NCBI GenBank assembly: GCA_002727195.1
Contig: PBWH01000009.1
Span: forward strand, 61,442-125,441
Reading direction: 5' to 3'
Source of the DNA: Gemmatimonadota bacterium
GTDB lineage: Bacteria; Latescibacterota; UBA2968
Length of the DNA stretch: 64,000 nt
Shown piece after piece: positions 45,123-59,754 of this stretch (positions within the stretch are counted from its first letter, which is position 1; every line of letters starts with the position of its first letter). A model generated the notes under the pieces. It was not told the DNA's origin, did not search any database, and worked only from the letters and a program-made list of their open reading frames with translations. Made by a program: the position numbers and the translations under genes.

Positions 45123-45148
45123 CGTTCCCAGGCTGGAACCTGGGAACG
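45123..45148. repeat. Dispersed palindrome, copy 1 (GTTCCCAGG type)
   Basis: Arms CGTTCCCAGG (45123-45132) and CCTGGGAACG (45139-45148), loop CTGGAA. It lies between the convergent C45 gene and a minus-strand gene. The same core recurs at 57361 and 59729. Confidence 0.8.
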
Positions 45149-53713: not shown

Positions 53714-54793
53714 CTAAGTCACGTCTGGACCGACTCGGATGGAGTGGGTCTTCACAAGACAGACAACACGTTCCCCCTTGCTCAGTCCGAGCTCCCGCAC
53801 AGCCTCTCCGGTTACCTCCACCGCAAGCCGCTTCCCGATGTCTACGGTCACCAGCTTGCGGCCATCAACGTCCGCGATATCTGAGACCCTTCCTTCGATC
53901 GCGTTTCGAACGCTGATTCCCGCTGGCCTGCTCCGGCACAGAATAATGTCGTTGGCCCGTATCCCGATGAAGATCCGCTTCCCCGGCTTGCGATCGCTGC
54001 CAGGAATTACCCATTCACTCTGACCATATCGAACGTGCGTGACGCCAGAGTCCGCATCGTTGGAGATCACGTCGACGGGAAGGACATTCTCGAACCCGTG
54101 CGCCTCGACGAGGGGGAGGATCTCGGTGTGGTGGGCGATATTGAAGAAGTCTCCAGCGGCAATGACCTTCCCTTCCTGAAGGACGATCACCTGCCCGGTC
54201 AACTGAAGGATTTCCGCAACAGAATGGCTGACATACAGAATCGGCAGACCGAGGTCCGAGCGGATGTGCCTGAGGTAGGGGATGATCCTGTCTTTGAGGC
54301 CCTGGTCGAGGGCGGCCAGCGGCTCGTCCATCAGAAGCAGCTTTGGAGAAGCCAGAATGGCACGGCCAAGCGCGACCCGTTGGCGCTCGCCACCCGATAG
54401 CGATGCCGGATACCGATCCGTGAGTGTCCCGATCTCCAGCAGGTCTACTATCGTCTCCACCTGGAATCGACGTTCCGATGCGGGCCGGAGGTCGAACCCG
54501 TAGCGCAGATTGTCTGAAACCGACAGGTGAGGGAAAAGCTGGTCGTCCTGGAACACGTGACTGACACGTCTCTGGTCGGGAGGGAGATCGATGCCTCGTT
54601 CTGACGAGAACAGGATCTCGTTGTCCAGGATGATCTCGCCCTGATCGGGTCGCATCAAACCGGACACCGTGCACAGGAGGGACGTCTTCCCCGAACCCGA
54701 AGGGCCGAAGATCGCCGTCACGGAGTAGGGGCACTCGACGTCCACTTCGAGCGTAAAGGGCTCCAGGTCCCGACAGACTCGGATGGTGAGCAC
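53714..54793 (-). CDS. modC: Molybdate ABC transporter, ATP-binding protein
   Basis: 359 aa. Walker A GPSGSGKTS (30-38), signature LSGGERQRVALGRAI near 133, Walker B LLLMDEPLAALD near 155 and H-loop YVSHSVAE. The C-terminal ~70 residues form a TOBE/MOP-like domain (ISVRNAIEGRVSDIADVDGR, VEVTGEAVRELGLSKGERV) that binds oxyanion, as in ModC. Energises molybdate uptake. The GTG start overlaps the modB stop by 1 nt. Confidence 0.94.
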   Translation of the reverse strand: MLTIRVCRDLEPFTLEVDVECPYSVTAIFGPSGSGKTSLLCTVSGLMRPDQGEIILDNEILFSSERGIDLPPDQRRVSHVFQDDQLFPHLSVSDNLRYGFDLRPASERRFQVETIVDLLEIGTLTDRYPASLSGGERQRVALGRAILASPKLLLMDEPLAALDQGLKDRIIPYLRHIRSDLGLPILYVSHSVAEILQLTGQVIVLQEGKVIAAGDFFNIAHHTEILPLVEAHGFENVLPVDVISNDADSGVTHVRYGQSEWVIPGSDRKPGKRIFIGIRANDIILCRSRPAGISVRNAIEGRVSDIADVDGRKLVTVDIGKRLAVEVTGEAVRELGLSKGERVVCLVKTHSIRVGPDVT

Positions 54794-55470
54794 TATGACT
54801 TCCTCAGACGCCGTGAAAGGTATTCGCTGGCCACCATCACTGCGAGGGACAGGAGAACCGAGAGGATGACAAGTCGTGCAGCGGCCGCCTCTCCGCCGGG
54901 TTGATTCAGGTAGGTGAAGATCGCTGAGGGAATGGTTCGGGTTTCGCCCTGGATGTTGGAGACGAAGGTGATTGTCGCCCCGAACTCACCCAGGCTGCGA
55001 GCGAACGAAAGTAGCGCCCCTACGAGCAGTCCGGGGGAGGCAAGCCGGAGTGTCACTGTGGCAAAGGCCCGTAATTTTCCGGCGCCGAGCGTGCGTGCGA
55101 CGCCCTCAAGGCGTGGGTCGACCCCCTCTATCGCTAGCCGGATGGCTCGGAGCATCAGCGGAAATCCAACGACGGCCGAGGCCAGAACCGCGCCCTTCCA
55201 GTCGAAGGCGAGGCGGATTCCCAGCCCGTCTTCCAACCATCCTCCGAGCCAGCCGCGTCTGCCGAAAAGGAGGAGGAGCACATACCCGGTGACGACCGGG
55301 GGAAGGACCAACGGCAGATGACACAGACCATCGAGGATCGACTTGCCGGGAAAGTCCGTGCGCGCCAACAGCCATCCGAGTGCGATGGCAAAGGGGAGGC
55401 TCAAGGCCACGCAGAAAACTGCCACGCGTAGCGAAAGGAGGAGAACTTCTGACTCAGCAGGCGTCAACAT
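54793..55470 (-). CDS. modB: Molybdate ABC transporter, permease
   Basis: 225 aa integral membrane protein with five hydrophobic segments and the EAA loop (AIEGVDPRLEGVARTLGAGK, near 130-149) that contacts the ATPase. PLVLPPVVTGYVLLLLFG is the ModB/CysT-type element. Overlaps modA and modC by 1 nt each, so the three are one translationally coupled unit. Confidence 0.94.
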   Translation of the reverse strand: MLTPAESEVLLLSLRVAVFCVALSLPFAIALGWLLARTDFPGKSILDGLCHLPLVLPPVVTGYVLLLLFGRRGWLGGWLEDGLGIRLAFDWKGAVLASAVVGFPLMLRAIRLAIEGVDPRLEGVARTLGAGKLRAFATVTLRLASPGLLVGALLSFARSLGEFGATITFVSNIQGETRTIPSAIFTYLNQPGGEAAAARLVILSVLLSLAVMVASEYLSRRLRKS

Positions 55471-56222
55471 CAGTCGCTCAGGTCCTTGAATCCGTGCTTC
55501 CTGAGAATCTGCCTGGATCGTTCGGAGGCCAGGAGGTCGAGAGCGTCCCGAGTGCGGCGTCCTGACTTGCCGTGAACGATCGCGATCGGATAGACGATGG
55601 GTTCGTGCAGATCCGAGCGAATCCGTCCTGCTACTCGCACACTGTCACTAACTCTCGCATCGGTGGCATAGACAATGCCCATCTCGCATTCACCCCGCTC
55701 GACAAGCGCCAGTGCCGCCCGAACGTCTACAGCGGGCGCTATCCTGTTTTGCAGACGTTTCCACCAGCCAAGCCTTTTCAAAGCCTGCTTCGCGTAGACC
55801 CCGCCTGGCACGTGGTCCGGATCGGCTATGGCAACTCTCCCCAGGAAAGCATCTGCGATGTTGAAGCCACGGTTTAGCGAGATTCTGTCCGGGCCATCCT
55901 GGGATGCGATCAGGACCAGTCCGTTGCCCACCAAATCCATTCTTGTCGATGCTTCGATCAGGCCCGCCCGGTCAAGATAGTCCATCCACTGAGTGTTCGC
56001 CGACACGTATAAATCTGCCGGAGCGCCCATTTCAATCTGTCTGGCTAGGGCGGACGAGCCCCCCGACGAAATTCTGAGGTCGATGCCCTGTGCCCTTGCT
56101 GAATCTGCAAGTTCCTCCAGGACGCCGGCCAGGCTGGCCGCCGCGTAGACCGTCACGGGTCGTTCGGCATTCGCCGGAGTGCACAGAGCAAGAAAGAGGA
56201 TTACGATAATCAGAGCGGTCAT
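55470..56222 (-). CDS. modA: Molybdate-binding periplasmic protein
   Basis: 250 aa. Signal peptide at 1-19 (TALIIVILFLALCTPANA). The mature start VTVYAAASLAGVLEEL and later GSSALARQIEMGAPADLYVSA and ECEMGIVYATDA match ModA oxyanion-binding loops. First gene of modABC and 74 bp after selD. A molybdate supply next to a selenium-activation gene suggests Mo/Se enzymes such as formate dehydrogenase elsewhere (inference). Confidence 0.93.
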   Translation of the reverse strand: MTALIIVILFLALCTPANAERPVTVYAAASLAGVLEELADSARAQGIDLRISSGGSSALARQIEMGAPADLYVSANTQWMDYLDRAGLIEASTRMDLVGNGLVLIASQDGPDRISLNRGFNIADAFLGRVAIADPDHVPGGVYAKQALKRLGWWKRLQNRIAPAVDVRAALALVERGECEMGIVYATDARVSDSVRVAGRIRSDLHEPIVYPIAIVHGKSGRRTRDALDLLASERSRQILRKHGFKDLSD

Positions 56223-56296: not shown

Positions 56297-57349
56297 CTAT
56301 ACAAAGTGGAGGTGATCGGAGGCCTGCTCTTTGACTTCGCCGATGATCGCGGCTTGAGTGTGCCCGGCGTCGTGAAGCTTTTTCAGGAGGGCTTTCGCGT
56401 CATCTCGAGCGAGTGCAAGCAGCAAGCCGCCGCTTGTCTGTGGGTCGATGAAGAGCTCTTGTTCGTAGATACTGATCGAGCCGGCAAAGCGGGTGCTGTG
56501 CTCGATCATCGCTCTGTTCTCGGCATTTACGCCGGTGGTCATGCCTTTCTTGTACATATCGAGCGCTTCGGGAAACTGCGGGATCTGGCTAGCGTGCAGC
56601 TCAATCGTGACGTCTGACCCGTTCGCCATCTCCGTGGCGTGACCGGCAAGCCCGAACCCGGTGACATCCGTGGCCGCGTGGATCGTGAACGTCGAGGCGA
56701 GTTCGGCGGAAGATCGGTTGAGCGCGGATATCGTCTCGAGACAGGTGGTCAGAGCTCCATCCGAGACCCAGCCCTTCAGGTTCGCATTGAACAGGACACC
56801 GCTTCCGATCCGTTTGGTTAGGATAATGAGGTCTCCGGGTTGCGCCCCTGCGTTCGACCAGTAACGCTCCGGATGCACGATGCCCGTAACCGACAAGCCA
56901 AACTTGGGCTCCTCGTCCTCGATCGTATGGCCACCCGCCAGAACGGCGCCTGCTTCAGTGATCTTGTCTAGCGCCCCCTCCAGAATTCCGTGCAGCATTT
57001 CCTCCGGAAGTTTTTTGCTCGGGAACCCGGCGAGATTCAGGCACGTCACCGGCTGGCCACCCATCGCGTAGATGTCACTGAGCGAGTTGGCAGCAGCGAT
57101 CTGACCAAACAGGAACGGGTCGTCGACGGGCGGCGTGATGATGTCGGCCGTGACGACGATCGCCTGATCTTCCGAAAGTCGATAGACTCCTGCGTCGTCC
57201 GACTTGTCGAATCCGACAAGCAGGTTGGCGTCCTGAACCTTCGGCAGTTGCGCGAGCAGTTTCCCCAGTCCGACCGGACTGATCTTAGCCGCTCAGCCGC
57301 AGGTCTTGGCGAGACCGGTCAGTGTCTTTTTGTGTGATCTAAATAGCAT
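56297..57349 (-). CDS. selD: Selenide, water dikinase, itself a selenoprotein (in-frame UGA)
   Basis: 350 aa if UGA at 57295-57293 is read as selenocysteine (residue 19) from ATG 57349. The start reads LTGLAKTCG-U-AAKISP, placing Sec at the catalytic Cys/Sec position before the conserved Lys. The frame continues uninterrupted through VGFDKSDDAGVYRL, TADIITPPVDDPFLFGQIAA, SDIYAMGGQPVTCLN, HAATDVTGFGLAGH and DPQTSGGLL. A standard ORF call would start at 57064 and lose ~95 residues, including the active site. Makes selenophosphate from selenide and ATP. No strong ribosome-binding site was seen. Confidence 0.9.
57266..57281 (-). promoter_or_regulatory. Predicted bacterial SECIS hairpin in selD
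   Basis: On the minus strand, 11 nt after the UGA, CAGTCC (57281-57276), loop GGTC (57275-57272) and GGACTG (57271-57266) form a 6-bp stem, extendable by one G-U pair. The apical loop starts with GG about 18 nt past the UGA, inside the window expected for SelB-recognised bSECIS elements. Confidence 0.7.
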
Positions 57350-57360
57350 AGGATGTTCTG

Positions 57361-57417
57361 GTTCCCAGGCTGCTACGGGTCGGGCCGAAGCCTTGGCGAA
57401 GGCCGATGCCTGGGAAC
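57361..57417. repeat. Dispersed palindrome, copy 2, with long loop
   Basis: Arms GTTCCCAGGC (57361-57370) and GCCTGGGAAC (57408-57417) enclose 37 nt containing a smaller stem (GCCTTGGCGAAGGC). It is upstream of selD and divergent from the dioxygenase; the rest of the 57418-57580 spacer has no gene. Confidence 0.7.
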
Positions 57418-59728: not shown

Positions 59729-59754
59729 CGTTCCCAGGCTGGAGCCTGGGAACG
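59729..59754. repeat. Dispersed palindrome, copy 3, at the broken end of the DUF2330 gene
   Basis: Arms CGTTCCCAGGC (59729-59739) and GCCTGGGAACG (59744-59754), loop TGGA. On the minus strand it is read as SQAPAWERK, directly fused to the end of the DUF2330 remnant. Confidence 0.8.

Follow-up and report, generated by a model that had tools for sequence, protein, structure and literature searches.

A predicted selenocysteine form of SelD, with a covarying bSECIS hairpin, in an uncultured Latescibacterota bacterium

The gene at positions 56297–57349 on the minus strand of the window (the whole stretch of 64,000 nucleotides analysed here) is almost certainly an ordinary, functional selD, encoding a selenide,water dikinase whose catalytic residue is predicted to be selenocysteine (Sec), its in-frame UGA being decoded through a SECIS element and SelB. 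As computed from the sequence, the reading frame extends from ATG 57349 to TAG 56297–56299 and, with the TGA read through, specifies 350 residues with a sole TGA at 57295–57293, in the context TCG-U-AAKISP; 331 residues and the stop follow it, giving the 332 downstream codons of the original prediction, whose coordinates were likewise reproduced. Membership of the SelD family was judged by the curated equivalog TIGR00476 (cut-off 125 bits), which matched residues 10–317 of the 350-residue protein at 359.2 bits (E = 1.7e-107). The start codon is supported by relatives that open with M-A-x-L/F...KTLT.

Alignment demonstrated that the UGA, codon 19 (57293–57295, minus strand), falls exactly on the catalytic Cys17 of E. 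coli SelD (PDB 3u0o), with TCG-U-AAKISP set against AG-C-GCKISP, so that UAAK stands opposite CGCK in the C/U-x-x-K motif. Across 14 aligned members carrying C/U-A-A/S-K, G18, position 19, A20 and K22 are invariant, and the N-terminus is conserved on either side of the UGA. By sequence, the best structural template together with 3u0o is Aquifex aeolicus SelD (PDB 2yye, 2zod), which has the same N-terminal catalytic loop; the crystallised 2yye chain has Cys at the catalytic position, whereas our sequence has UGA there. The original prediction that this codon occupies the Cys/Sec catalytic site of SelD is thus upheld by alignment with both Sec- and Cys-type proteins.

The gene resembles known Sec-SelD/SPS2 proteins (TIGR00476, Sec motif UxxK) in its full-length match, in the catalytic Sec followed by AAK, in a bSECIS directly downstream of the UGA, and in the presence of selA, selB and selC in the genome. 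It differs from them in nothing essential, its only particulars being the subfamily signature TCGUAAKxSPVGL, modABC-like neighbours and occurrence in an uncultured lineage. Sec-SelD is listed among experimentally verified selenoproteins (PMC13188914, Table 1; also PMC4561486, PMC1794560) and ranks second among prokaryotic selenoprotein families in breadth of distribution (PMC13188914; also PMC1794560, PMC4561486); since the family is already known and widespread, the SelD of the window adds a member to a known kind.

The genome to which the window belongs is a metagenome assembly of 5.42 Mb in 38 contigs, 91.7% complete and 7.1% contaminated, and gene searches recovered from it the full Sec-decoding set of selA, selB, selC and selD. 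On contig C31, selA (160177–161523, 575 bits), selB (161563–163440, 371 bits) and selC, a tRNA-Sec with anticodon TCA recovered by tRNA search (164838 to the contig end), are adjacent; selD lies on contig C15, and its link to selABC comes from binning rather than from contiguous sequence. No tRNA was detected in the 64-kb window by ARAGORN, selC sitting on other contigs. Two identical 98-nt copies of the tRNA-Sec occur (C12:44763–44860 and C31:164838–164935), with differing upstream flanks. Because C31 terminates exactly at the CCA end of the tRNA and nearly all relatives are single-copy, the extra copy is unlikely to be a second gene and probably reflects overlap in the assembly or strain variation.

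A frame that is open once its TGA is read through would also be seen if UGA encoded a standard amino acid in this organism, as it does Trp or Gly under codes 4 and 25. However, TGA is the commonest stop in the genome, ending 672 of 1442 long ORFs, so general reassignment of UGA is excluded; moreover, the residue stands for a catalytic Cys rather than for Trp or Gly, and tRNA-Sec(TCA), SelA and SelB are all present. The chance that UGA is read in this way is very small. A role for SelD in tRNA selenouridine synthesis was also considered and rejected: 2-selenouridine synthase (TIGR03167) was found in 0 of 64 genomes, including the window's own, by a search that does detect the E. coli enzyme. 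With no selenouridine synthase in the sample, SelD here serves Sec.

We then assessed the distribution of the UGA in a sample of 64 genomes from the phylum. SelD is present in 47 of them, with TGA at this codon in 40, Cys (TGT/TGC) in 6, and a fragment lacking the site in 1; all 40 TGA-type genes contain exactly one TGA. Among these 40 genomes, selB scored over its cut-off in 37 and tRNA-Sec above 60 bits in 37, and both are missing only from G063, a bin that is fragmented and 87% complete; in the 17 genomes without SelD, selB (0/17) and tRNA-Sec above 60 bits (0/17) were not found. TGA occupies the same codon in 55 named genomes from many phyla. The closest named relatives, at 60–62% identity, are metagenome bins assigned to Desulfobacterales, Verrucomicrobiales, Deltaproteobacteria and Acidobacteriota, assignments that we do not trust. 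The codon therefore behaves as expected of a selenoprotein gene: it aligns with Cys in homologues and is kept as UGA in related Sec-decoding genomes.

Under the standard code, the longest ORF is a truncated one of 255 residues from ATG 57064 (56297–57064, minus strand) that has lost the active-site N-terminus, as the original prediction had expected of default gene calling. Since standard calling yields just this ORF, the UGA might be taken for a true stop, leaving either a selD pseudogene created by a nonsense mutation or a short protein from ATG 57064. Against this stand the retention of TGA at the codon in the 40 sampled and 55 named genomes, the conservation of the N-terminus on both sides, and a hairpin that is conserved only together with the UGA; nor is there any other SelD in the genome, though selA, selB, selC and a Sec-containing FdhA exist. 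We regard a true stop as extremely unlikely. The pseudogene and alternative-code readings were accordingly rejected on the conservation of the UGA, TGA stop usage and the Sec machinery, and decoding as Sec is retained as the preferred reading.

Two types of Sec-SelD, TCGUAAKxSPVGL and CGGUASKL, share approximately 48% identity and are found in separate genera within the same families; no genome of the sample has two SelD genes. This pattern points to replacement through horizontal transfer, or to differential loss. Genomes G052–G056 have Cys-SelD, yet retain selB and Sec-FdhA, while G058–G063 have Sec-SelD with no UGA seen in FdhA-like proteins; these are natural Sec/Cys exchanges in the SelD and FdhA families.

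The 6-bp hairpin with a GGTC loop that had been claimed 11 nt after the UGA lies at 57281–57266 (CAGTCC-GGTC-GGACTG, minus strand), its loop beginning 17 nt from the UGA. The 51-nt segment starting at the UGA has a predicted folding energy of -19.5 kcal/mol, and both the MFE and the centroid structure predict a larger stem-loop at 57254–57294, in which a lower helix pairs GAGCGG (57294–57289) with CUGCUC (57259–57254), so that the UGA comes to lie at the foot of the lower stem. The bSECIS model of Zhang and Gladyshev, as restated in PMC13188914, specifies a loop of 3–9 nt, a stem of 4–16 bp, a G in the first two loop positions, a distance of 16–37 nt from the UGA and an energy of -7.5 kcal/mol or lower. 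With its GGUC loop, 6–7 bp, 17 nt and -19.5 kcal/mol, the selD hairpin falls within every one of these limits, in agreement with the original prediction of a bSECIS with a loop G at 16–37 nt. It is also like the bacterial SECIS consensus (a 4-nt loop, G in the first two positions and then G), and no difference from that consensus was found. Rfam returned no match in the 64-kb window at the gathering threshold, and relaxing the threshold brought up nothing but chance matches around the hairpin; this silence is no evidence against a SECIS.

Taken alone, the selD hairpin of this single gene is mildly unusual and of borderline significance (dinucleotide-shuffle z = -2.07, with 5 of 200 shuffles equally good; p = 0.07 under a synonymous-codon null). 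Because this single-gene evidence is weak, relatives were tested. The covariation test covered the upper hairpin stem, the lower helix being a fold prediction, in 21 SelD genes of the TCGUAAK type (20 distinct sequences). Across this set 95.8% of stem cells pair; among the distinct sequences, pair 18–27 occurs as U-A (11) or C-G (9), with 0 mismatches, and pair 15–30 mostly as C-G (9) or G-C (8). The computed covariation score was 0.346 versus 0.184 +/- 0.029 for shuffled data, a value reached by 0 of 500 shuffles, and it fell to 0.09 or below once the partner strand was slid. The main stem changes (AGT/AGC with GGA/GGG; ATC/GTG with CTG/CTC) are synonymous, affecting third codon positions, and hence cannot be put down to the protein.

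We further compared 126 SelD genes, 95 with Sec and 31 with Cys, against a null of synonymous recoding. The best bSECIS-like hairpin scored 15.9 versus 8.4 expected in the Sec genes, and 8.3 versus 7.7 expected in the Cys genes; a hairpin at p <= 0.05 was present in 53/95 Sec-SelD versus 2/31 Cys-SelD (Fisher p = 6e-7). The CGGUASKL type builds its hairpin at the same distance from a different peptide (ATCCAGC-GGT-GCTGGAT). The hairpin therefore goes with Sec and not with Cys across SelD genes, far beyond chance over the 95 Sec-SelD.

These data bear on a further possibility, that the UGA does encode Sec but the hairpin is a side effect of conserving the peptide KISPVGL and the true signal lies elsewhere. 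Approximately 7% of synonymous draws for this peptide give such a hairpin, and the perfect 6-bp stem is broken in two named relatives (L072 and L075). Against this, both partners of a pair change together, mostly at synonymous sites, and other Sec-SelD lineages, unlike Cys-SelD, form the hairpin with quite different peptides; we consider this explanation very unlikely. A bSECIS at this position remains the preferred reading. The original prediction had named two findings that would speak against a Sec-containing SelD, the absence of selB and selC and a lack of SECIS conservation among relatives; selB and tRNA-Sec are both in the genome, and the stem is kept through double compensatory changes.

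The genes that follow selD on the same strand resemble modABC. A modA-like gene for a molybdate-binding protein (55470–56222, minus; SBP_bac_11, 2.2e-49) lies 74 nt downstream of selD, followed by genes for a modB-like permease (54793–55470, minus; BPD_transp_1, 1.4e-18) and a modC-like ATPase with a TOBE domain (53714–54793, minus; ABC_tran, 1.9e-29; TOBE, 5.9e-8) of an ABC transporter. The molybdate specificity of the modA-like protein is suggested by the adjoining modBC-like genes, and we infer that this neighbourhood fits a molybdenum formate dehydrogenase as a main consumer of selenium. In genome G025 the order selB, ResA-like gene, selD, selC is found on one contig. Separately, palindromes built on GTTCCCAGGCT recur in the window (45124–45147, 57361–57417 and 59730–59753; 6 matches versus 1.1 expected by chance), one copy lying 12–68 nt upstream of the selD start codon.

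A scan for UGA-interrupted frames, which covered about 2.45 of the 5.42 Mb, followed by family searches, gave an incomplete list of selenoprotein candidates. Formate dehydrogenase FdhA has one in-frame TGA, in the active site CSRAUHAP. Between selB and selC lies a gene (C31:163730–164476, plus strand) for a ResA-like thioredoxin-fold protein with WASWUGC and a TPR tail; its UGA is kept in 22 genomes, in many of which the gene is beside selD and selC, and the copy in G060 contains, in addition, a TAG within the matched region. UGA occurs in an AhpC/TSA-like protein (GEWUPVC), in a PrxQ-like protein (STGGUT), and in a SelW-like protein (CAQU), where it is kept in 44 genomes. SelW-like genes with two in-frame TGA codons were observed at G062:C95:8004–8219 and G063:C724:10329–10544. 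A DUF5069 protein has UGA in YPUGAD (position 118785 of contig C5, minus strand), apparently at a conserved Cys, and followed by the hairpin GGTTCC-TGGA-GGAACT; our literature search found no paper joining DUF5069 and selenoprotein. For two further UGA frames (L196 and L216), no family matched convincingly through the UGA. The idea of SelD as the sole selenoprotein was rejected on the strength of the FdhA, ResA-like, Prx-like and SelW-like genes.

Outside the window, the Sec system supplied by SelD likely also decodes a UGA at the metal-site cysteine of an M20D amidohydrolase (C22:305104–306366, plus strand; TIGR01891, 8e-59). The UGA falls at the Cys of GHxCGHN (here GHGUGHN), aligning with GHACGHN of HmrA (3ram); in M20D enzymes this Cys binds the active-site metal. 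In the phylum sample, 23 genomes of the class carry a close homologue with a single TGA, always at this codon; just one close homologue has Cys (TGC) instead, that of G057, a genome without selB, selC and selD. Codons 6–13 after the UGA are nearly invariant despite four-fold degeneracy, the mean top-codon frequency in the 11-codon window being 0.88 versus 0.74 or less in the other windows tested. Against the synonymous null the hairpin did not reach significance (p about 0.4–0.6) because the peptide is Ala/Gly-rich, and the case for a selenoprotein rests on codon invariance and the UGA/Cys distribution. Such an M20D hydrolase is absent from the 2026 inventory of 119 prokaryotic selenoprotein families (PMC13188914), and our literature search found no selenoprotein of this kind. 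The gene probably represents a new selenoprotein family, whose Sec would be more likely to bind metal than to do redox chemistry.

From what is known of the families involved, a course of events can be proposed. During translation, SelB carrying Sec-tRNA-Sec would bind the hairpin downstream of UGA 57295–57293, which would then be decoded as Sec without termination. The Sec, in a flexible N-terminal loop beside the conserved Lys of U-A-A-K, would handle selenide, and the ATP-binding core of SelD would make selenophosphate. SelA would use this selenophosphate to form Sec-tRNA-Sec, which would feed SelD itself, the molybdenum formate dehydrogenase and several thiol-redox selenoproteins.

Standard annotation drops 95 residues, including the active site, from the core enzyme SelD, and in 39 related genomes of the sample selD is likewise interrupted by this in-frame UGA. 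Sec decoding is established across a class of uncultured bacteria with no selenouridine pathway to explain SelD. If the M20D assignment is true, its Sec form would place selenium at the metal site of a hydrolase, in a conserved Sec version.
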